From Panorpa germanica (Eukaryota; Arthropoda; Insecta; Mecoptera; Panorpidae), in assembly GCA_963678705.1 (NCBI GenBank), contig OY783203.1, positions 44,268,347 through 44,332,346 of the forward strand: a stretch of 64,000 nucleotides of DNA, in the 5' to 3' direction. The position numbers and the translations under genes were made by a program. Positions 7,095 to 62,713 of the stretch are shown here, one piece after another (position 1 is the first letter of the stretch; each line of letters opens with the position of its first letter). Below the pieces are notes generated by a model, which saw nothing but the letters and a program-made list of their open reading frames with translations, did not search any database and was not told the origin of the DNA.

Positions 7095-7512
7095 AAAATA
7101 GTCGATAAGCGATAGGCGAGGTGGCTGAAGCTGTAGGCATCACATTTTACATGAATATTTGTACATGAAAAATCTATCCGCGATGGGTGGCTACGAACTG
7201 CTATCCCATCCAGCATATTCTCCAGATTTAACCCTCAGCGAATATTTCCTGTTTCCAAACCTGAAGAAATGGCTGGGCGGTAAGAGATTTAGGTCTAACA
7301 AAGAGGTCATCACTGTAACAAACGCCAATTTTCAGGGCTTTGAGAAAAGCTATTATTTGGAAGGAATAAAAAAATTAGAAAACCGCTGGTCTAAAAGTAT
7401 CGAGCTAAAAAGAGGCTATGTTGATAAATAAAAGGTCTTTTTTGTCGAAGAAATATCTTTTATTGAGAAATAAATCGCCCTTTTATAAAAAAAAAAGTCA
7501 CTGAATTATCAA
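7095..7512 (+). mobile_element. mariner element, internally deleted
   Basis: The open frame at 7159-7431 is the C-terminal quarter of a mariner DD34D transposase. It has the HPAYSPDL block holding the third catalytic Asp, then YFLFPNLKKWLGGKRFRS, then SYYLEGIKKLENRWSK. Just upstream at 7114-7140 the DNA still encodes EVAEAVGI, part of the N-terminal helix-turn-helix, so the middle of the gene with the first two catalytic Asp residues is gone. The right terminus, read inward on the other strand, starts TACGAGGGTAGTTTGATAAT at 7512. No matching left terminus was found. It is a dead, non-autonomous copy. Confidence 0.85.
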
Positions 7513-13425: not shown

Positions 13426-13542
13426 TGAAAGGAAGATTAACCAACCTTTTCCAAGCAAAATTTGTTATAAAGTCTTTTGTAAATTTCTCATATGATTAGT
13501 GGTATATATATTATTATATTTTTATTTTTAAAAATTTTTTTT

Positions 13543-13805
13543 TTATTTAATTTATTTAACGTCGGCCTATTTCCGATGCTGAGTCCTATCACCTATGACC
13601 TTCTTCAATGTTGGCACTATTATTGATGTAGTGGCCTCATATATGTGGAACACACCGCTGCCTAATAAGTGTACGATTAGGTATGACCATAATCAATATA
13701 AGCTGATAACAACCACACCCAGAAAATATTTATCTGGTCTCGGGATCGAACCCGAAGACATAGCAGTCAGCGTCAAGCTTCAATACTCTGATCCAGTGTG
13801 TCGTC

Positions 13806-13807
<2 letters not shown>
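13543..13807 (-). mobile_element. SINE, near full length
   Basis: A near-complete minus-orientation copy, with tail TTTAATTTATTTAACG at the left and head at the right. Box B reads CGGGATCGAACCCG in this orientation. The head ends at GTGTGTCGTC and runs directly into a (TA)n tract. It sits in the intron 3' of the mGluR exon, about 250 bp from the splice donor. Confidence 0.85.
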
Positions 13808-14770
<963 letters not shown>

Positions 14771-18778: not shown

Positions 18779-20689
18779 AAATGGAAAACTTTGCAGACCC
18801 GATAAAGTGAATAAACAATAATCAACTTATAATTTCTTTTCAGTTCAGTTTTTGAGAATATATTTTCCAAATTTTTAACCAACTTCAGCTAACTCCTAAC
18901 GGAATTTCAGCAATGTGCTGTTTGAGGTGTGTCGCACTAAAGGGTATATTTTTAAGAGAAATATTTTGTTTCTAATTCAAATTTTGAAATAAGAGTGAAC
19001 TACATGACTGTAATGATGACGTCATACAAAAATTTAATAATGAAACATTATCGTTTTAGTATCAATTGATCAAGCAAAAATGGATTACGTACCACTTTAA
19101 TACAAATTATTTCATTTCTATAAATGCTGGCTATAGCGTACAGTCAGTTTTACTTTTGACCAGCTGTTTGTGTGACGCCAAGACGTCAGCTCCAGCAATC
19201 TGGATATATTGCAGCACGATCTACTACAGATAAGGATGATCAACATGATTATAGATAGTACTAACCTGTATTCAATACGTGTTAAAATTTCATTACATTT
19301 CGACCATTGGTTTACGAGTTACAGTAGTTTTAGCGACGCTACTTTTGTAATTTTCAAAACAATGTAAAAATCTGAATTATGGAAAAAATACCAAGTCCGA
19401 ATAACATTTATCAAGCCATTGCTCTGCTTGAATGGTATTTCTTCCCACCAAACTATCTATTGGTACTATCTAAAAATCATATGAATTTGCCAGTAATGGC
19501 GCCATATATATGTCATCCTACTAACTTATTGACTGGTGTATTAGAATACATAATCATACTAAGTCGAATCGTAACAGATATTTGAAAGGAATTAATTAAT
19601 TTAATTAGTTCTGTAACTCTGTCTATACGAGTTCATCCTCCATACTAAATGGTTCCTAAAAGTTGAACTTAGTAGTCTATACGAAAGTAGTGTTCTTAAT
19701 ATTAAATTTGTTTTCGGTAAGGAGATATTTCCGTTCGCGTGAGAGCTTATCCATAAGTCTTTTAAAGCCCACACTACGAGTATACGGAGATTTTTCGTCC
19801 AAACACATTTGGCAAACACATTTATTTCAAAACAAAGCATTCGATCTTCTTAAGGTTAATTCAGAACTACATAAAAAAAAGGAACCTAAATAAAATAAAA
19901 TAAAAGTAAAAGAAAAGTGAGATAGGTTTTTCTTCAGAGAACTTCTTTAAATATACGTGATCCTATGCATTGAATGTTATGGACCAATCATTGTCTTTAT
20001 ATTTTATTGTCTGTATACTGTTTAAATTTATTTGTTTTTTAACTTTCAAATAAATGGTGTCTTTTTTCAAAGGGTTAAACATGATGATACAAGTGTTAGA
20101 CAGGCTTCTGTAGATTCAAATTTAAAATGAGATGTTGTGCGAAAAACTGGAAAGAAACTTTGGTAGTCTACTTTTCAAGGTTTTATCTGACTTATAGAGA
20201 ACCACTATTTTCTCTATAATGTTTCCTGTTAATTGCAATATAATCTTCGTTAATTTAAATATTTTTTACTTTTTTAGCACCAAGTTGCAAAATATTCTAT
20301 TTACGTATATAGTCAAGCATCAGTTAATCACACTAGCTAAGCTGAGTATCATAATGTGTACTAAAACTAAAGCAAAACATAACCCTGCAACCGGGATGTT
20401 CAGAGCACTGAACTTTAACCACAAACTTAAACGGTATTAGTCTTTTGCATGAACAAACGTGTTGTTTCATAAACCGCTAAACTGTTATACACACATTATA
20501 CGAGTATATGTGTTGCTTAAGTTATGTGATCATTTAATGAGTCATATATATAGGGTTAATATTACAATTGATTAAATTATAATACGTAATAAATAGAATA
20601 GGAAATAGGAATTGAATGAGCATTACGGCACTTTCTGTGGCTGAGGTAGTTAGAACTATGTTCTATACTCAGAATTAATTTATTTATCA
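18779..20689. other. AT-rich non-coding stretch
   Basis: No gene is recognised. Short open frames at 19379-19585, 19601-19893 and 20219-20440 have neither domains nor splice context. Confidence 0.5.
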
Positions 20690-20920
20690 TTTAATTTATT
20701 TAACGTTGGCCTATTTTCGATGCTGAGTCCTTGCACCGAAGATCTACTAATATGATGTCAGTTTTTGTTGTGTCATCACCTCAATATATAAACTACAGCA
20801 CTGCCTAATAAGTTTATGATTATGTATGTACATAATCAATTTATTTTCATAACTACCAATTTCGGCAAATATACCTCTGGTTCAGGGAGCGAACCCGAAG
20901 ACACAGTAGTCAGCGTCAAG
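20690..20920 (-). mobile_element. SINE copy, nearly full length
   Basis: Minus orientation, with tail TTTAATTTATTTAACGTTGG, CGATGCTGAGTCC, a dyad TATGTATGTACATAATC and box B as GAACCCGAAGACACAG. The head beyond CAGCGTCAAG is missing. Confidence 0.82.
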
Positions 20921-21670
20921 TATTACGTACTTCCTTTTTTAAATTTACTGTAAAGTTACAGCATAACTTTACTACATTGCATAAGTAATAATTCAGTTTC
21001 TATTAGCATTAGAAATTGGCCAACGTAAATAGAAGTAATCTTCTAATTTCTAAATAAAATAAAATGTTCATTTCTATGCACCCCACCAAACTGTCAATGA
21101 TGTTGAGGGATGTCAATCAGACATTATAATCCCAATGAAAGCATAGTAAATCTCAAAGTAAGGGTTTTCCCAAAAATAACAGAAACAATCGCTTTAAGTT
21201 TATTTTCGTCTTTGTATTTATCCCCTCAAGTATTCTACATTGGATTGGAACTTTAACGAATTGCTAGTACTCACTGCACAGTTCCAATATATTTTTTATA
21301 TCCATTTACTTTTCTTTTGTTTTTCTTTCAGTAATATATACCAAAGCTCATTATTATTTTAAGAGCAAAGGCTTCTACAATATTCTTTTAAAATAGTTTG
21401 CAAATAATGTTTATTTACAAAGTTTATTTTATATTTATTGAAAGTAAAAGAATTAACTTGTAGAATACTTAATTTTCTTATATAAAACATTTGAAATATT
21501 TCATTCGATTTTTTTTTTAACGATGACTAAACTAACTACGTTTGTTTAAATTAAATAATAATAGTTATATAAACTATTCATTTAACTTCTTTATCGTTAA
21601 TAAAATAAAAACTATTTCGAGAAAGGAACGTGGTAGTCTAGTAATCGAACATTGATAGTCATAGCCACCA
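20921..21670. other. AT-rich non-coding stretch
   Basis: No gene or shared repeat was recognised. Confidence 0.5.
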
Positions 21671-23172: not shown

Positions 23173-23669
23173 TAGTATAGGATAGTAAGCGCTAAGGCAT
23201 TTTCTCAGGTAGACAAACGACTTGCAATTAAAGTTTTTCATTTATTTTCTATCTGGGTAATATCATTGTTTTATTTTAACGAGAATTTTATAGTGTAATG
23301 ACTGCTTCCTAAACTTTCACATATCCTAAATTTTTGGAAACCGAAGACATAATTTTTAAATATTTACTTGTATAAGTCACTAAGGGTGTAATACCCGAAA
23401 GTATCGACAAATCGGGAAATTGTTTTTCTTTGATAAGAAAGTTAACTTTTATATTAAAATATAACAAATAAAACTTATACGAGTATCATGTTGGGTCTCA
23501 GACTCTGTAATGGATTACACAAACGCCTTCTACGTACAAGACAGATCGCTTTAAAGAAAGTAAAACGTCTTGGTATTTTATGGGCAAAAAATACGGATAT
23601 CAGTAGGACAGTAAAAACAAGTACTTTCATAATTATTTTGCTAAGATTGCATAATTTATCAAAACTACA
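23173..23669. other. AT-rich non-coding stretch
   Basis: No gene is recognised. A 116-codon plus-strand frame from 23488 runs into the SINE that follows and is not a gene. Confidence 0.5.
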
Positions 23670-23941
23670 GACGACACAGTGGGCGAGAGCATTGATGCTT
23701 GACGCCGACTGCTGTGTCTTCGGGTTCGATCCCCGGACCAGGTATATATTTTCTGGGTTTGGTTATTATGAACTTATATTGATTATGGTCATACATAATC
23801 GTACACTTATTAGGCAGTGGTGTAGCCCACATATATGAGGCCACGACACCATAAATACTGCCAACATTGAAGGAGGTCGTCGGTGATAGGACTCAGCATC
23901 GGAAATAGGCCGACGTTAAATAAATTAAATAAAAAAAAAAA
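23670..23941 (+). mobile_element. SINE, full-length reference copy
   Basis: The best copy of the window's main family, about 255 bp plus an A-rich tail. The head starts AGACGACACAGTGGGCGAGA and holds a box-A-like TGGGCGAGAGC and, about 40 bp on, a perfect polymerase III box B, GGTTCGATCCC, so it is tRNA-like. GACACAG at 23675 pairs with CTGTGTC at 23714, and GGCG and AGCA/TGCT stems nest inside that. The middle has a CATACATAATCG segment and TTAGGCAGTGGTGTAGCCCA. The 3' end is CATCGGAAATAGGCCGACG followed by TTAAATAAATTAAAT and an A run. It has no coding capacity and would depend on an unidentified LINE. About 21 other copies occur in the window in both orientations, with variable 5' truncation. 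Confidence 0.9.
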
Positions 23942-29985: not shown

Positions 29986-30617
29986 CAATATATAGACCGG
30001 TAGTTTCTTAGGCCTCCAGGTGAACATTTCTATTCCCCTTCGGCTTATATCGCTCTGAGAAAGAAGTGAAAAGTGTTTGAGTAGTTCTAATGGTTTTACA
30101 AAGAAAATTAAGTTCTATTGTGTTAGTTTATTTAGAGTTTGAGACGGTGTATCTCGTTTAACACGCGTCTAACAGGTCTCCCTGTTATAACATACACTTA
30201 TTTACGCCTCTGTCACCGAAAGCTGCTTGTAAGATTTGATTATGTTAAACAGCGACCTATGTTTGATTACGTTGTAAAAGTATTTTCTATCAATAATCAT
30301 CTGACACGTATAGATAATGCTTTTGTGCTTAGTTTAGCTTAATTTATTAATTATATTCTATGAATATTAGTAAATTACTTATTTGACGTTAACGCTATAT
30401 TAAACGTTGTTTACTTCAAGAAACGCCGAGACAATTTAATTTTCATAAATCGTGGATCCCAGTAAACAAATATTTTAAAGTAGTATCGCATTACCCATGA
30501 ACAGTTTTTGTTTCGTCAACAATTCTGAGAAATTAAGATATATTAAAATTTTAAGTTATTTTTACAGCTTTAAAAAAATGTTTTAAATCATAAAAAATAG
30601 TTTATTAATTCTATACA
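29986..30617. other. AT-rich non-coding stretch upstream of the 163-aa gene
   Basis: No coding seen. No convincing TATA box precedes the ORF at 30618; the final 100 bp hold only A/T runs such as ATAAAAAATAG. Confidence 0.45.
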
Positions 30618-31109
30618 ATGCGGGTATACCGAAGAAAATTGAGCTATGGAAAAAGTGTGTGCACCATTAGTAGAAAATCAACGGGAGTTATTAAATATGT
30701 TCCAATACGAACGTATATTATAAGAAGACCAAGGTTATTAAATACGCAGACTAAAAGATATTTTTTAGTAACACCAACTAAATATAAATTTCAACCAAAA
30801 ACTATGCAAGGAAAAGCACGAAATATAAACGATGTGAAAAATGAAACGGAATGTAATCCACGACCAAGAACGCAAATCTTTATGAACGCTATAATTATAC
30901 CTAGACAACCTCCTTACATGTTAACGTGCCAGCCCAGAAACATCAACCAGCCTAATAGAAGCTGTCGTAGAAGATCCAGCACTAGGACTATAAGTTATGT
31001 TTCTGTCAGGAAACAAAATATATACTGCCAGTATTGTCATCGTCATATCCGGCAGAATATACAGAGGACTGTAATGGTACAGACCTTAAGAAAGCAACAG
31101 CCTTTGTAG
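30618..31109 (+). CDS. Arg-rich basic protein, 163 aa, intronless
   Basis: A single uninterrupted frame starting MRVYRRKLSYGKSV. About 24 of 163 residues are Arg and Lys is also frequent, so the protein is strongly basic and probably nucleic-acid- or chromatin-associated (inference). It has no signal peptide or membrane segment. Cys are sparse; notable are MLTCQPRNIN (101-110), an SCRRRSS block (115-121) and a C-x-x-C at 137-140 in NIYCQYCHRH. I do not recognise the family. An AATAAA lies at about 31245, some 135 nt past the stop, which supports expression. A convergent gene on the other strand at 33813-34523 shares several spaced motifs (C-x-P, M-x-x-CQ, RNIN, RR, N-x-x-C or N-x-C leading to C-x-x-C) and may be a diverged paralogue. 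Small intronless Arg-rich genes of this kind are often male-germline proteins in flies, but nothing in the sequence proves that. Confidence 0.6.
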   Translation: MRVYRRKLSYGKSVCTISRKSTGVIKYVPIRTYIIRRPRLLNTQTKRYFLVTPTKYKFQPKTMQGKARNINDVKNETECNPRPRTQIFMNAIIIPRQPPYMLTCQPRNINQPNRSCRRRSSTRTISYVSVRKQNIYCQYCHRHIRQNIQRTVMVQTLRKQQPL

Positions 31110-31574
31110 AAAGATATTGAATGAAACAACTATCTCCGAAGGACAGATTTGATGTGATGTTATGTATATCATCTTGGCAGAAAAGTTCAACACAATTAAA
31201 TATCTGCATTGGTGACAAAGAAACAAGTTTACAAAAAAAAAAATTATAATAAATATTAAATCAAAACCACTCTCTTTAAGATATACTTGTATATGTTCCT
31301 ATCGTAGTATCATAAACGTAACATTTCTGTAACATTTATATTAAGCAAATATGTCAAATAAATTGCTATGATAACGTAAATGCTGTACCATATAATCTGT
31401 TTTAGTGGAAATGACTGTTTTATGATGTATTATTTAGTGCATTAACTAACAAATTACTTCTACATTGGAAATAGGCCATTAATATCATTTACTACAGCTT
31501 TATTTTTTATGCCTTGATATATTTTGAAATAACAATTTCATTTATCTTAAGATCATTTTGTAAGATCGTAAAGA
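31110..31574. other. 3' flank of the 163-aa gene
   Basis: Contains an A-run at 31233 and AATAAA at about 31245, a likely polyadenylation signal. Otherwise empty. Confidence 0.5.
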
Positions 31575-31730
31575 AGCGGCACAGTAGTCAAATCATTGCT
31601 CCTTTACGGCAGACGAACATGTATTAAGGTTCAATCACCGGACCAGTGCAATATTTTTTAAGTTTGGTTGTTATCAAAATTACTATGTTTATGTGACTTA
31701 TAAGACAAGAGATTTGAGGCAGTAATGCCA
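31575..31730 (+). mobile_element. SINE copy, degraded
   Basis: Plus orientation: GCACAGTAGTC head, GGTTCAATCACCGGACCAG with box B, then TTTGGTTGTTATCA. The 3' half is lost. Confidence 0.65.
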
Positions 31731-32821
31731 GGTGTTCGAATTAAGATTCACTTGAAAGGCTCGAAAAAATACATAAAATAAAATTTGTGTAGAATTTTGT
31801 CATTTTTGAAAATGTTATTTTGAGCATAGGAAACAAGATATCTACATAAAACCGATTTCTGTGAACTTTGACCTTTGAAAAGCAAGAGTTGCGTACACGA
31901 GATTTTATGAAACTTTTGAGCTAAGTTATAAAATGTCAAAACACAGATTTATTAAAAATTTTAGCTTATTATAGGAGTATTTCATTCCAAGGTTGAATCC
32001 TTATATAACTACGGCTTATTGCTACAATAAAAGTTTGCTTTGTAAGCATCGTGATATGTAAAAAATTAATATTAAACAGAATGATGTTACTATATTTACA
32101 ACTTTTATTTACAATCTCTAGAAATGTATAAGAAATATACTTTGTATAATTTTCTCAACTGTGCTGCCCTAGTTCGTATTACTTATCAACAGATTTTCTT
32201 TATTAGATGTAACTTTATGTACTAATAAAGTAGTCTTTTAGATGGGAAACGATATTCCAAGTTTTCGCACCCTCCCTTTAACAATCTAACCAGTATATAC
32301 ATAGATGAAGTCAACTGTTTATTCTATACTTCTATTCTTTTCAGAAGATTCTTAACATATATCGATCCTTCCTTGTTGCCACAAGTTTCAATAAACGATT
32401 TAACAAGATTTCTTTTACATAAGATTTTTAAATACTTTGAGTGTTATATATATATAAGTTAAGTATCTGTAATGGTCTTAAAATGTATAGCATGCAAATA
32501 AATTGTCTTTTATTCTGTATTGAGCTCTTTTCTCTAACTAAATTAATAAATTCAATCTTAGTGGATCTTACCTAATACGAGTATCTTTGATGTTGAATGA
32601 TGATGAGTTTTTTACTATACGTCTATACCCTTAGACAAATTATTTATCAATTTTCTTGTTCTTATATTCTTCCTCTCTTCGTAACAAGTATTTCTTGTAT
32701 GGTTAAATATGTTATTACGTGATATGTTTCATACGACGTTCATTCAAATATAAACCTGAATTTTTTAATACAGGTTTATTGGTAGTCAATAGCACACAAT
32801 TTGTTTGACCACAGCGTCGTC
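31731..32821. other. AT-rich non-coding stretch
   Basis: No gene or shared repeat was recognised. Confidence 0.5.
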
Positions 32822-32945
32822 TTAAATTCTTTCTCCTGCTAATACGTCCTTCACTGGACTAAAAATATAGCAGTCACATGGGGGTAAGTATAGATTGTAA
32901 GGTGGGTGTTCAAAAGATTGTTAGTGTAATTTACAGCAGCCTCTC
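32822..32945 (-). mobile_element. mariner transposase fragment
   Basis: The minus strand encodes HPPYNLYLPPCDCYIFSPVK from 32908 downward, then DVLAGERI and a stop at 32822. It aligns with the mariner HPPYSPDLAP block, but the catalytic SPDL has become NLYL, so the third catalytic Asp is lost. Its upstream part matches the fragment at 25255-25440. Confidence 0.72.
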
Positions 32946-33812
32946 ATGGATTGGGAGTAACATGTCTCTCCTCTATTCATTCTCCCGCCGCCGATTTCAC
33001 TGCGCTGCTTACATTATTACATCATTCAAAAAAATCGATTTATATTAAAATGACCTTAGTATATTATAAAATGTATAACTTTCTATATTTTCTAGAATGT
33101 ACATTGGAACACCGCAAGTGGTGGTCTAAAAATGCAATAAGTTTAGCAATTATGACAATTGGAGATCTTAATTTAAGTAATTCTCATTAAAATACATATT
33201 AAAAGTATTGAAACCTGTACGATAAAAACTAAAATAGATAATAGACAAATACAGTATTAAAGCAGTACAGTATTAAAGTATTGGGCAGCCTGCCCAAACA
33301 TCATTGATCTTTTACTGTTGTTCAAAGTACCACAAATAAACAATGCAACCATAACAATGCATTTATATTCTTTTGAAAACCGGTCTAGTTCAAATCTTGT
33401 GACATAAAATAAAATAATACAATTTTTACACTGAATTGAAACCAAAGTCTCTGACCGATTACTTACCAAAAGTCTATCTTGATATTGTTACTTTTAGAGA
33501 TTTATTACCTATTCTATACAGAGCTTTTGGCTTTTTGATAGAGTTTAGCAGCGAAGATTATAGTGAATACGTACTTGGTTTTGTGAATAAGTATTTGCTC
33601 GTTTTTGTGTTTCTTTAGTGTAAACGGTGCTCTAAAAGAATCTTTCTTTTGCTCTTTAATTTAAAGATTTGTATTGTTTATATCAATCAGTTTATATTAT
33701 TGCATCAATGTTACGTTTGTTTATATTACATCAGTAGAGAAGTCAGTATTACATAATGGTTCTATTAAGGAAGTATTTCAATCTTGAATTACAATTGCTA
33801 TTGAACTTAAAA
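32946..33812. other. AT-rich stretch between two convergent genes
   Basis: No coding recognised. On the minus strand past 33813 there are ATATAAA-like words but no canonical AATAAA near the stop. Confidence 0.45.
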
Positions 33813-34523
33813 TTATTTTCCTCCAGTTGGCGGTCTCTTCAAAATTCCTTTAAGAATGGGTTTTTCTTTTCCATCATTAGATCTTCCACTAGTTATTCTT
33901 CTAGATCCCTTATTTTTCAGTATACTTTTTAGAACGGGTTTTCCTAATTGATTACTTCCTACATTATTTCTTCTTGGGATAATCATTCTTTGGGGTATAC
34001 TTCTTCTAAAACCACTGAAGTTAATTGCATCTACATTCCTGTAGTTGGAAGATTGCATTTCATTTTGGTTTGTTTGAGTTTTAGCATCTATCTTAGGATT
34101 CAGTGGATAAGCACAGCGACAAATAGTGCAAAAATTACGGCGTCTAGTCATCGGTACTTCAAATGCTAATCTTCTACCCGTTGCATTTATATTTCTGGAC
34201 CGCGTGCTTATATGTTGACAAGCGATCATTTTCTTAGCTATTTTCGCATTATTAGGAGTGCAGGGAACATCTTGATTAGGACCAACACCTACGCTTCTTT
34301 GGTTTCTAGAATCTAATGCAATTCTTCTTACTATGTTTCTATATTTTCTGCCGACAGACATGCCCCATGATTGATACCCGTTTCCTCCATATTTTGGAAA
34401 ATAATTAATTCTTCTAGGTCTTATATTTGGTCTGGGGCCTAAATTAAAGTGAACTGGTCTTGAAATTGACGTTTTTGGTTTTAAAATAAATCTTCTTTTA
34501 CAATCGTTGCATTGTTCAGACAT
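33813..34523 (-). CDS. Arg-rich protein with PP1-docking-like motifs, 236 aa
   Basis: An intact intronless minus-strand frame, far longer than chance for this composition; about 31 of 236 residues are Arg. Visible parts: CNDCKRRF at 5-12 (one C-x-x-C), SRPVHF with an RVxF-type RPVHF at 22-26, MIACQ at 99-103, RNIN at 110-113, NFCTICRC at 130-137, then two C-terminal repeats, PVLKSILKNK (196-205) and PILKGILKR (222-230). KSILK and KGILK match the [GS]IL[RK] (SILK) motif through which inhibitor-2 and other regulators bind protein phosphatase 1; KGILK is the form found in inhibitor-2. A PP1 regulatory or targeting role is therefore inferred, though such short motifs can arise by chance, and in known partners SILK usually precedes RVxF. 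Its overall family is not recognised. A TCAGT initiator-like word lies about 55-60 nt before the ATG. Confidence 0.65.
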   Translation of the reverse strand: MSEQCNDCKRRFILKPKTSISRPVHFNLGPRPNIRPRRINYFPKYGGNGYQSWGMSVGRKYRNIVRRIALDSRNQRSVGVGPNQDVPCTPNNAKIAKKMIACQHISTRSRNINATGRRLAFEVPMTRRRNFCTICRCAYPLNPKIDAKTQTNQNEMQSSNYRNVDAINFSGFRRSIPQRMIIPRRNNVGSNQLGKPVLKSILKNKGSRRITSGRSNDGKEKPILKGILKRPPTGGK

Positions 34524-34920
34524 TATATTTGAATATGTTGGTACACTATAAATTTATTTTTAATTTTGAGACTGAGATTTGACAAACAAATTTTGAGGTT
34601 GTGTTTGAATGACAGACAATGGCAAACATTATTGTAAGAAAATCATAGCACATACGATTAACAAATGCCAGGTGTGACATTCAATTGGGAGACTTGTTTC
34701 AAATATTTAAATTATTGAATATAGCAATAATAAGTTGAAGGGTCTGGCAATACTAGCACAGAAGTGGTCTTCTCTTATACATTGACAATTTACTTTTGAA
34801 AGATATACCGGCTGTGTAACTATAAACTGTCGATTGAAATGAAATAAAATCTCTGTGTTTATTTGACTTATTTTCTACTTATATTTTCAAATAGAAAATA
34901 TAATATAAAATTGTACTTTA
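34524..34920. other. 5' flank of the 236-aa gene
   Basis: On the minus strand, CTCAGTCTC at about 34568-34576 is an initiator-like sequence upstream of the start codon. No TATA box at the usual distance was seen. Confidence 0.4.
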
Positions 34921-35305
34921 CAGGCGTCCTAAAATTCACGCAAGATTTGAATGTCGCGCCAGTTAAGCTGTAAAGCGTTTGCAACGAAAATTAAGACAAT
35001 GTGATAGCTGACAGCTTACGATTATTAAAAATAGAACACTACACAAAAATAAAGCAACGTGTTTTTATAGTTTACAAGTATAGTTTATAGATATTTACAA
35101 GTAGAAGTTAAAATTTATTGATGAGGCTCATTTTTATCCTGATGGCTTCGTTAAACGTCAAAATTTGAGGTTCAGAAATGCCATCCAGATGAGATTTAAC
35201 GCCATTAGGGGGTTCTTTAGGATTTTTTGAAGTCAGAAAAAAAATTAATCAAAATATTTTGTTTTCCATGAAAATTACTTCATGCGTGAATTTTTAGACA
35301 CCCTG
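34921..35305 (+). mobile_element. Tc1-like element, internally deleted
   Basis: The ends are inverted copies: CAGGCGTCCTAAAATTCACG at 34921 and, read inward from 35305, CAGGGTGTCTAAAAATTCAC. TA flanks both ends (34919-34920 and 35306-35307), the target duplication typical of the Tc1/mariner superfamily. At 35122-35238 the plus strand encodes FIDEAHFYPDGFVKRQNLRF and continues to a stop. This is the DEAHF block of Tc1/Tc3-type transposases, which carries the second catalytic Asp. The DNA-binding half and the rest of the catalytic domain are gone, so the copy is non-autonomous. Confidence 0.8.
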
Positions 35306-35439
35306 TATATTCATAAAGTTAGCCTCCAGAATGTAAAATTATTTTTAAGTGAATCCCTATATTTTGGAAGATATTACCAATTAAAATAATTATTTTGTCT
35401 CTAACTTATAGTAAAAGGGATCCTAAGTTATAGAAATTA

Positions 35440-35700
35440 CCAGGGCTGATTTGCCATCTCTTTTATACAGCAGAATTGTACGAGTGTGTGTGTGATACGT
35501 CATTTACTACTAATAGTTTTGTATTCCCATTTACTACATGAAGTTATTAAATAGAAGATATTACAATACTTATGAAAAGAGAAAACGTCTTATGCAGAGG
35601 TAAAACATGCGGCAAAAGTAAAATTTAAATTTAATATAGTTATAACTTCGTCAACTTTTGGGTATTTTGATAAATAAAAACATCAATATACTTATATTAA
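35440..35700 (-). repeat. Dispersed repeat DR-D, inverted copy
   Basis: Read on the minus strand it follows the same order as 52180-52452: TTTTTATTTATCAAAATACC, CAAAAGTTGACGAAG, TTTTGCCG, then at the far end the complement of TTTGCCATCTCTTTTATAC. About 260 bp, with no frame and no clear terminal inverted repeat. Confidence 0.6.
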
Positions 35701-35929
35701 CTTTTATTTCAATCGAAAATTAAAAAAAACGACCCGTAAGAAATGAGTTCACAAGCCCATTAAAAGTAAATGAGTTTTATCTTCTTGGAACGTACGAACT
35801 AAGTTGCTACTCTATTACGCTTTGTAAAGTCTTCCTGTTTTTTAGAATATGGCGAAATAATACTGTTCAGTACATTACATTTATTTAAAAGAAATAAGAC
35901 TTACAAGAGAAACGCTGCGGATGCCTCTT

Positions 35930-36230
35930 TTAAGAAAGTTTTCTGACTCTTTTTTTATGACTTCCCTTAACTCTAAAACTTATGATAAAGATAGTACAAG
36001 AAGAAGAAAGTACAGATGTTTCAAGTACCATTTCGCATCGGCCATCGAATGAGAAGGGCTCTGGTACCAGTATTCCAACTCCACCAGTAAACAAACTCTG
36101 ATGATACTCGTACTCCTGGTTCCCTGCAACCCTTTCTACAGCGGATGGAGTTTGAGTCGATGCCGCTCTCGGCATGGGGTGGCCTATATGAAGACCTCTG
36201 CATACCAACGACCTCACGCGCTCTCAACGT
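35930..36230 (-). other. GC-richer coding-like island
   Basis: This stretch approaches 50% G+C against under 30% around it. On the minus strand a 95-codon frame contains TPSAVERVAGNQEYEYHQSL then FTGGVGILVPEPFSFDGRCE; a second minus-strand frame is open for 68 codons. No family is recognised and no splice signals were convincing. It could be an exon of an unknown gene or a piece of inserted coding sequence. Confidence 0.3.
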
Positions 36231-36428
36231 AAACCTTGATACGTGGGGTCGCGATTTATCTGGAGAACTAGGTTGTATCCATGATACAATACAGATTTAC
36301 GCATAACTGTGGGACGCATAAAGAGATTTAACAAAACACGTGTTCTGTGTTTTAGAACTTCATATGAAACAAAAATTAAAATAAATTATATATAAACGGC
36401 ATAGAGCATTTATGAATGACCCCAGACT

Positions 36429-36502
36429 TCTATGTCTCCTGGACCAGAGTTTTGTTTTCTGGGTTTGGTATTTATGTACTCTCATAATCATACAACTGAC
36501 AA
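36429..36502 (+). mobile_element. SINE fragment
   Basis: Plus orientation: GGACCAGAGTTTTGTTTTCT, GGGTTTGGTATTTATG, CATAATCATACAAC. It stops exactly where repeat DR-C begins, suggesting that DR-C inserted into this SINE. Confidence 0.65.
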
Positions 36503-36870
36503 CCCAGTAAACATTTTGGAATCACTTTGTCATCATATTGAAGATGCGTACGAATTTTTTGTCATGAAAGAGTTCATTTAGGCTCTCCGCACATGCGGCG
36601 ACTGGTTGCAAACCTTAGCCCCGAACAACACAGTTGCATTCTCATTCGGTTTGGGCAGATTCGGGGCTAAGGTTTTCAACCAGTCGCCTCGTATGCGGAG
36701 ACCCTTACAGTTCAGTCGTTCATATGAAATGTCTATTTTATCGGCTACAAATGGCGAAACCGCTCCATTTGTCGAAATACAAATGAAGATAAAGTTGATG
36801 GGAACTATAATTGAAGTACAATAGTGATAGAAACGTCACAGAACTCAGGACACTTCACCACATAAAGTGT
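36503..36870 (+). repeat. Dispersed repeat DR-C, interrupted copy
   Basis: It starts CCCAGTAAACATTTTGGA and matches 37914-38151 on both sides of an inserted MITE: GAAGATGCGTACG before it, and TTACAGTTCAGTCG, GGCTACAAATGGC, CAAATGAAGATAAAGTTGAT and CAGGACACTTCACCA after it. The right end is eroded. Confidence 0.75.
36581..36704. mobile_element. PIF/Harbinger-like MITE
   Basis: A 124-bp element whose two 45-bp ends are inverted copies (left GGCTCTCCGCACATGCGGCG, right read inward GGGTCTCCGCATACGAGGCG; both continue GACTGGTTG, then ACCTTAGCCCCGAA). It is flanked by TTA at 36578-36580 and 36705-36707. The related DR-C copy has a single TTA at 37969-37971 and no insert, so the empty site is seen directly. 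A 3-bp TTA duplication with ends starting GG is typical of the PIF/Harbinger superfamily. It has no coding capacity. Confidence 0.8.
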
Positions 36871-37199
36871 GCTAATTCGAAACAACTGCAAGACATCCTA
36901 CTAACGAAAGTCGGCGTCGCAAGCAGGCTACTGCAATATCAATATAAACCAATTTAATTAATTATTATTTATAGACAGCTAATAATTAATTATTTCTGTC
37001 GTAATCCAATTAACTTAATTGTTGTTAATAATAATTTAATTTTTAAAATTATAATTACCTAATTCAAAGTTAGGGTTTCAAAAAATTAAATGTCTATTTT
37101 GTTTTTGGGTCACTTTTATTAAATAAAAAGTTTGAAGACCTTGAAATAGGGGTAATGTAAAAGTAAATGACGCACTTGCATTATGCTTTCATTCTAAAT

Positions 37200-37410
37200 T
37201 CCCAAAAGGGACGTCAGTCGTCAGTCGTCACGCCTGACGGATGCCGGAATACACAAGCACAACACGGAAAATATTGATTCCATTAGTAAAGCAATGTGTT
37301 TTGCCACGCTATCATGTTTCCAAGCTGACTGTACGAGTGGGGGATCAATTGGAGGAGGGGAAATGGATTCTGGAGGTAGACAAACGTCTCCGTGGCATCT
37401 CTGTACCATT
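37200..37410. other. GC-richer island, open on both strands
   Basis: Contains a GTCAGTC heptamer tandem (about three units) at 37211-37229 and open frames of 62 codons on each strand, the minus one with HGDVCLPPESISPPPIDPPL. It has better base balance than the neighbours but no recognised domain. Possibly a promoter-proximal or exonic relic; undecided. Confidence 0.25.
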
Positions 37411-37913
37411 CTATTAATATTGAGTGATTCAATTCAAATGAAATGTGTTTATATTTTTCATTGGCATTCTTTTCAAAGGTAGATTACTTAAGTGAGATAT
37501 TTATTATTTATTAATATAAGCTAAAGATAATCCATTTTTTATTTAGGAATACCATCTAGGTGTGAGAGTGCGTATAAAATCAGATGTCTTTATGTGCGTT
37601 AAAATGATAAGAAAGGTAACAAACTAAAAAAGGACGCGCTTAATATACTTTGAATCAAATCCGTTCAAAGTTTATTATAGTTTAGTTTTATTTAGGTTAA
37701 TTTGTTAAACCTACAGGAAGAATGTTTAAAAATATATTTGCGACATGCTCTATTCTATCCAGTTTACATTTGTTTTGCTCATTTGACAATGCATCACTTG
37801 TCTACATTATTTTTCAAATGTAAAGATTAAGTATTGAAGGAATAACCCTTCTTAATTTAAATACAAAATTTAAACATATACTGTGATAATTTTTATGAGA
37901 ATGCGCTAAACAT

Positions 37914-38151
37914 CCCAGTAAACATTTTGAAGTCACTTTGTCATCATATTGAAGATGCGTATGATCATTTACAGTTCAGTTGCTTACAGTCGTTCATATT
38001 AAATGCCTATTTTATTGGCTACAAATGGCACTCCAAAATCACTCCATCTGTCGGAATACAAATGAAGATAAAGTTGATGCGAACTATAATTAAAGGGCAA
38101 TAGTGATAGAAACGTGGCAAAACAGGACACTTCACCAAACCGTTTACTGAG
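37914..38151 (+). repeat. Dispersed repeat DR-C, uninterrupted copy
   Basis: About 238 bp from CCCAGTAAACATTTTGAAG to GTTTACTGAG. The last ten bases complement the first ten with one mismatch, so the element has short inverted ends. It has no reading frame and is the reference for the interrupted copy at 36503 and the fragment at 26522. Probably a non-autonomous DNA transposon. Confidence 0.75.
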
Positions 38152-60930: not shown

Positions 60931-62713
60931 ATGCAGAACAAAGCTCACAAAATGCTTAAAATCTGTGCTTGGCTATCTACATTGGTAATTCTAGTATATT
61001 ATGTAAATGTGAGTTATCCTAGATAATGTGTATCTAATTTATTTTAATCCTTTCCAGCTAGTGACTAGTTATGCTGCAGGACTACCTGAATTTATTCAAG
61101 GGACTCCAATTACTACTCCAGAACCCGATGAGTTGTACTGTAACGCCCCCAGTATTTTGGAGTGTCACAGCTGCAAACATATTAGGGTAAGTTCAAAATT
61201 GTTCACTCAAAATTTTGCAATGAACTAATAATTACTTTTTTTATTTTTGAACGTTTTCAAGATCTGTCTTCTTCAGATTCTCGGTTTCTAACTACTATCG
61301 TTTAATATTATCATTGAATGTTTATATACTCTAATAAAACTGATATCTTATTATTATACTATAGATATGTGATTCGAAAAGCAAAATTGCGGCTATCAGA
61401 CGATGCGCCGACGCAACACCGTTCTGCAACAATAAGAAATGCTCCCCCACTCCTGATAGAAATCTTTGCAAAAGCGATGCTCTCTGCCCTAAACCAAATA
61501 AATACTTCCAAAGTAAGTATGAAATATATTTCATTTTATAATACCATATCCGAGAAGTACTTTGTGCTTGACACCCGATTGCTGTCTTGGGTTTTGATCC
61601 CTGAAGTAGCTCAATATTATCTAGGTTTGGTTATTTCGATTTTCAATAAGACTTAGTATCGGTCGACTTTAATTAAAATAAGTAAAATGTAAAAAGTAAT
61701 TTAGAAAATACAGTTGTCATATAGAAAAATATAGTTGATAATACTCCTCTAGCTAGCGTATCTTGCTAAACGTAAATTTATGTAATATTTAATGTAATAT
61801 TCTTGTCTATTGTTACTTTTTATGAGTGTCGCAAACATGAAAATACATGTAAAATACACATTATATGATGTTAAATAAAAAAAATGAATTTTATTAACAA
61901 AACATAAATGGATTTTACAAGTAATTTTGTTTTGATGTAATTTGATATTACATTAAACTTAATAAATGTTATGTAAAGGGTAAAAGTATTTATGTCAACT
62001 AAACCTTGAATACTAACGGTTTAATTCTTATTGCAGATCCAACAAACTGCAAAGAATATCACTATTGTGACTCTATGAAGATGGCAATCAGATATCAGTG
62101 TCCTCCAAAGTACGTGTACGACCAGAAAACATCAAACTGCAAATTGGCAACATTTAACCGTACTTGCTCAGAAATCGACTGTAAATTGCCCACAAACCAA
62201 GAACAACTGATTCCCTATCCAGGAGAAAATTCTATCTACACATACTGCGACGTTACTGATGGCAGAACAATCATATTTGCGTGCGACGAAGGCGAACACT
62301 TCGAAGTTGAAACCTTGTCATGCGAATTTGCTTGTCAAGCGGAAGGTCATTTTGTGTACAAACACAACTGCAGAAAATATAATGCATGTTACTCAAATTC
62401 CAACAACACATTTACTAAGGTTTTAACTGATTGTCCACCAGGAATGATATTTAATTCTGAAAAAAAAGTATGTGATCTTAACCTGAAGGAATGTCCTCCG
62501 AAACCATCGAAGAAACGAATAATCTCTAACACTTCTAAGAAAAATATTCCAGCAATTTCAGAAGCACCGATTAAAAAACGAAGAGTCATAAGATCAAAAA
62601 GTAGGTTGAATACTGATCCTATCTCCGCGCAAAAAATTATTCCTCAAAAGAAAGCAAAAATAATATATTCCCCAGTAACCGGAATTTTTACAATAGAACC
62701 AAACCAAAAATAA
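60931..62713 (+). CDS. Secreted peritrophin-like chitin-binding protein, four exons
   Basis: Coding exons are 60931-61008, 61058-61186, 61365-61512 and 62037-62713 with GT-AG introns (donors GTGAGT, GTAAGT, GTAAGT; phases 0, 0, 1), giving 343 aa. Residues 1-26 hold a hydrophobic signal segment (ICAWLSTLVILVYYV); Met8 is an alternative start. Residues 54-104 are a Cys-rich N-terminal region unlike CBM14. Then come three peritrophin-A (CBM14) type units: 110-162 (C110, C123, C129, C140, C153, C162, with NPTNCKEYHYCD), 167-214, and 218-271 (C218, C230, C236, C251, C264, C271). Unit 2 lacks the second and sixth Cys. A Lys/Arg-rich tail (272-343) follows. Such proteins bind chitin in the gut peritrophic matrix or cuticle; the tissue is unknown here. 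A SINE fragment sits in intron 3. The exact orthologue is not named. Confidence 0.88.
61553..61680 (+). mobile_element. SINE copy, degraded, in intron 3
   Basis: Plus orientation: GTGCTTGACACCCGATTGCT, TGGGTTTTGATCCC (box B), TAGGTTTGGTTATT, then TAGTATCGG. It lies just after the intron 3 donor of the chitin-binding gene. The middle is deleted. Confidence 0.68.

Follow-up and report, generated by a model that had tools for sequence, protein, structure and literature searches.

A very basic protein with a paired SILK-like tail is encoded within a metabotropic glutamate receptor intron of Panorpa germanica

Among the systems closest to the locus described here are proteins that carry SILK and RVxF motifs for docking to the phosphatase PP1. 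According to the available text of PMC3792071, SILK always lies N-terminal of RVxF, for which two stricter consensuses are given, both excluding Pro at the second position, and the C-terminal SILK of LAP1B has no role in binding. The accessible part of PMC3410773, in turn, places the motifs in the order RVxF-SILK in Rif1 of multicellular organisms, which is itself contradicted by an excerpt of PMC5437018, where mouse Rif1 has SILK at residues 2128-2131 and RVSF at 2150-2153. In I-3, SILK contributes once RVxF is deleted, as far as the available portion of PMC10066265 goes. The second group for comparison is that of insect sperm nuclear basic proteins, which, following the part of PMC12216123 at hand, vary greatly from one insect to another: canonical Arg-rich protamines occur in some, and a few have proteins that are only protamine-like.

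The gene considered here lies in the window, i.e. the whole stretch of 64,000 nucleotides that was analysed, together with the following features:

33813 to 34523, minus strand: single-exon ORF of 236 aa; pI 11.5, Arg 13.1%, Lys 8.1%, seven Cys, one full match in the genome.
30618 to 31109, plus strand: basic single-exon ORF of 163 aa (pI 11.4, Arg 14.7%), convergent with the former and 2.7 kb away.
14057 to 14242, minus strand: exon of the metabotropic glutamate receptor gene, lying downstream of the nested ORFs; by eye, acceptor ...TTTTTCAG/ATACCGCA and donor ...GAAAAG/GTAAAT (slash, exon boundary).
34923 to 35302, no strand assigned: short MITE-like element, 400 nt upstream of the ATG, whose two ends form inverted repeats of 23 nt that are 83% complementary.

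The 236-aa ORF reads from the ATG at 34523 to 33813 in a frame open from 34553, and the plus strand at 33813-34523 contains stops throughout. Its GC content by codon position is 0.36/0.47/0.22, and the spread of 0.249 was not reached by any of 4000 stretches of 711 nt drawn at random elsewhere in the window (maximum 0.186). The open frame of 246 codons surpassed the longest frame of every one of 60 windows simulated with a third-order Markov model (mean 131), and AGA accounts for 26 of the 31 Arg codons. On the basis of base periodicity, frame length and AGA bias, this is a real single-exon gene, and the Arg-rich intronless gene of the original prediction was thus confirmed.

Receptor exons were located on the minus strand at L003:7781-7915, at 14057-14242 of the window and at L012:5766-5936 and 27-191, with a receptor probe; Pfam and PDB sequences gave independent confirmation of the window exon, and the L003 exon alone gave no Pfam match. 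The junction of the L003 and window exons reads CTGTTTAAG/GTAAGA ... TTTTTCAG/ATACCGCA, and therefore one intron of ~57.5 kb, bounded by L003:7781 and window position 14242, encloses the 236-aa gene, the 163-aa ORF and a chitin-binding ORF. The 236-aa gene is consequently nested, on the same strand, within an intron of the metabotropic glutamate receptor gene.

The coding case for the 163-aa ORF is weaker, its periodicity being suggestive only (6.4% of 4000 random stretches were as periodic). It was tried as a paralogue of the 236-aa gene and rejected: the best alignment was equalled by 744 of 2000 shuffles and BLASTP returned E 29. By eye, MxxCQ...RNIN...CxxC is common to both ORFs, and in an eye-picked region 216 of 2000 shuffles reached the alignment score. 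The chitin-binding ORF, at 62006-62713 on the plus strand, has three CBM_14 stretches (E 2.2e-19). Between receptor exons, at L012:3229-5322 (plus), an open frame of 698 aa contains leucine-rich repeats (LRR_6, E 2.9e-11) and presumably resembles CEP78. Repeats were also observed in the window: a 46-nt inverted repeat (36580-36705; 89% complementary, arms separated by 34 nt) adjoins a repeat common to 36713-36860 and 37987-38137 (86% identical), and an interspersed family with 77-89% identity occupies 13535-13809, 20679-20923 and 23666-23940. An open frame at 7129-7431 (plus), with Pfam DDE_3 at E 0.073, below the cut-off, is what we take to be a mariner transposase fragment.

The protein has no relatives in the libraries searched, which agrees with the original prediction that it matches no familiar family. 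Searches of the 236 aa against Pfam, NCBIfam and PHROGs gave zero matches; at E 10 neither the whole protein nor its 47-aa tail matched any Pfam family, and Rfam (gathering scores) and a tRNA scan were equally empty. Against PDB sequences there was no match below E 0.5 for the whole protein and none for the tail alone; CCDC12, at E 0.51, was taken as a chance match. No relative was confirmed among viral and prokaryote contigs. When the 464-Mb assembly was searched, two candidates were scored, the gene's own locus and one at E 3.1 (L002). The latter is surrounded by short open frames, which we read as a transposon, and it was discarded as chance.

The motifs in the protein are as follows:

33915 to 33929, minus strand: KSILK, residues 199-203, inside KPVLKSILKNKGS.
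33837 to 33851, minus strand: KGILK, residues 225-229, inside KPILKGILKRPP.
34479 to 34487, minus strand: ILK, residues 13-15, near the N terminus in the context RRFILKPK.
34446 to 34460, minus strand: RPVHF, residues 22-26, matching the loosest RVxF pattern only.

Both cores were found exactly where they had been predicted, the tetrapeptides SILK and GILK occupying residues 200-203 and 226-229. Two or more [GS]IL[RK] occurred in 0.03% of 20,000 composition shuffles (0.032% of 300,000), and two or more K[GS]IL[RK] in a single one of 300,000, so that the predicted duplication of SILK in parallel contexts stands far above composition chance; these odds are nevertheless too favourable because the ORF and the motif were chosen after looking. 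Across the 44,187 aa of window ORFs of at least 30 aa there were seven matches, two in the 236-aa ORF and five outside it.

The units GKPVLKSILK and EKPILKGILK differ at 8 of 30 bases, and half of these changes are silent. When one half was shuffled 5000 times, 9 shuffles reached their alignment score; when the whole protein was shuffled 500 times, 3 reached its best 10-residue self-match. These scores fit an internal duplication. Conservation between the cores was considered as a sign of selection and rejected as not significant, since at least 7 of 10 residues were kept in 5-10% of simulations; a lower value obtained for the seven residues that the cores share was set aside as circular. Moreover, the protein contains four ILK and one VLK (starting at residues 13, 197, 201, 223 and 227), and four ILK were reached in none of 200,000 shuffles. 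These five ΦLK are preceded by F, P, S, P and G, respectively, so only two of them fit SILK. Judged from these residues, [VI]LK-[SG]ILK present twice is the better description of the tail, and xΦLK, not SILK, may be the repeated unit.

RPVHF is indeed present as an RVxF-type motif, as had been proposed, but it is not above chance, a loose RVxF being found in 31% of 20,000 shuffles. It fails both stricter consensuses, and the protein has no strict RVxF. Concerning the proposed unusual order of the motifs, the available portions of the literature are divided: PMC3792071 would support it, and the RVxF-SILK order given for Rif1 in PMC3410773, contradicted by PMC5437018, speaks against.

With its pI, a charge of ~+40 and K+R of 21%, and placed as a whole among disordered proteins by a charge-hydropathy plot, the product is probably a basic nuclear protein, probably of the germline. 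Nowhere does it have four basic residues or more in a row, and 13% Arg leaves it far from a canonical protamine. The region upstream of the ATG holds two further features:

34588 to 34597, minus strand: exact TCE match CTCAAAATTT, -74 to -65 from the ATG.
34561 to 34570, minus strand: TCE-like site with one mismatch, CTCAAAATTA, -47 to -38 from the ATG.

In the available text of PMC3439415, CTCAAAATTT placed in a TCE-mutant Drosophila reporter raised transcription ~2-fold, and the TCE was present in 85 of 190 core promoters from Drosophila testis versus 79 of 765 from embryos. The same text gives a conservation of ~25% outside the melanogaster subgroup, and because of this poor conservation the match here may be due to chance. 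Both sites lie on the sense strand, their starts separated by 27 nt, and among 20 neighbouring same-strand pairs theirs is the closest (the next, 29519/29627, being 108 nt apart); no TCE occurs within 200 nt upstream of the 163-aa or chitin-binding ORFs. The exact 10-mer was observed twice in the window versus 0.63 expected (11 of 100 shuffles reached two) and the one-mismatch pattern 22 times versus 20.5. The germline assignment of the original prediction hence gains a weak hint of male-germline expression from two matches 38-74 nt upstream, a pair chosen after looking, while window-wide counts are not clearly above chance.

Our preferred reading, to which we give a probability of about 0.45, is that the product of this intron-nested gene is a very basic nuclear protein of the male germline, probably disordered, that binds nucleic acid; tissue, site and binding are what we infer. 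The protein would bind nucleic acid in male-germline nuclei via dispersed Arg/Lys clusters, in a manner that may be likened to protamine-like or transition proteins. The duplicated C-terminal [VI]LK[SG]ILK unit would then either repeat that surface as a basic-hydrophobic element or serve as a secondary dock for PP1.

The alternative closest to the original prediction is that of a PP1 adaptor, in which the basic body would anchor the protein to chromatin or RNA and the tail, with its duplicated inhibitor-2-type SILK, would recruit PP1, with RPVHF uninvolved; we consider it possible but doubtful. Apart from the paired K[GS]IL[RK], it draws on the first core, which resembles inhibitor-2 (PDB 2o8a_I, against which the sequence letters were verified) beyond the tetrapeptide, KPVLKSILKNKGS versus RPI-KGILKNKTS, a score reached by 36 of 20,000 shuffles at gap -6 and 111 at gap -11. 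At the latter cost another six-frame segment tied with it, and the second core is less like inhibitor-2 (494 and 1572 of 20,000 at the two gap costs). Within the literature available, the KGILK region of inhibitor-2 contributes to PP1 binding, and basic residues adjacent to SILK in I-3 are suggested to aid it (PMC10066265). Against such an adaptor speak the absence of a valid RVxF under the stricter patterns, the xΦLK nature of the repeat (x being F, P, S, P or G), and the non-significant constraint between cores. The accessible parts of published work on SILK point the same way: changing Rif1 SILK to SAAA costs ~20-fold and RVSA leaves <0.1% of the affinity (PMC5437018), which makes SILK the lesser site there because the RVSA mutation costs far more; LAP1B does not bind through its C-terminal SILK (PMC3792071); binding of Scribble is unaffected by a SILK point mutation (PMC8569552); and SILK of I-3 adds little beside other motifs (PMC10066265). 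What had been called a PP1-binding protein keeps its duplicated SILK without an RVxF of the stricter kind, and docking by the tail is a reasonable hypothesis, though we lean against it.

Combining both lines, the product could be a new lineage-restricted sperm-chromatin protein whose two SILK motifs, on a disordered tail, would bring PP1 to condensing chromatin without RVxF, which we regard as improbable. Should the tail bind PP1 via SILK alone, a duplicated SILK can suffice, and turnover of sperm chromatin proteins would be linked to phosphatase recruitment; should it not, the case would urge caution, as a tandem xΦLK repeat mimics SILK. Genes of this orphan, intron-nested, basic type are seldom assigned a mechanism.

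Less probable still is a domesticated basic ORF of transposon or viral origin, such as a capsid or core nucleic-acid-binding protein. A single exon, the basic composition, the failure to find relatives and the MITE-like element 400 nt upstream would agree with such an origin, but the genome match is single, no repeat of LTR length exists in 30000-37500, the 250 nt upstream and 800 nt downstream have no common word of at least 10 bases, no A-run of at least 6 occurs within 600 nt on either side, and no relative was found on viral contigs; retrocopy marks (A-tract, target-site repeats) were likewise absent from the flanks scanned. A chance or decayed frame without function is very improbable, for although the null model's longest frame hit 236 codons in one of 60 windows, GC is 0.22 at third versus 0.47 at second positions, no random stretch was equally periodic and AGA dominates the Arg codons.

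In comparison with known systems, the preferred reading of a basic germline nuclear protein can be set beside four of them. Inhibitor-2 (PPP1R2) resembles the first core in its KGILK and the flanks, the two together reading [KR]P[IV]-K[GS]ILKNK-S; its KGILK, however, is N-terminal and followed by KSQKW and an inhibitory helix, so far as the available sources describe it, whereas the present protein is basic throughout, carries two copies in its C-terminal tail with an additional residue (L), lacks the KSQKW and HYNE motifs, and does not match the inhibitor-2 profile (PF04979), either whole or with its 47-aa tail (Pfam at E 10). Rif1, a chromatin PP1 adaptor, is also nuclear and in animals has SILK and RVxF in its C-terminal region, according to the portions available, but it is large and has HEAT repeats, while the 236-aa protein has neither a Pfam match nor a strict RVxF. 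LAP1B, as described in the accessible text of PMC3792071, shares an N-terminal RVxF-type motif with a SILK C-terminal of it, and differs in being a membrane protein whose SILK plays no part in PP1 binding. Insect sperm nuclear basic proteins, finally, are basic, contain Cys in some species and show strong lineage differences (PMC12216123, available part); the 236-aa protein has only 13% Arg and no long Arg clusters of the protamine type, and resembles them in its high Arg/Lys content and basic pI.
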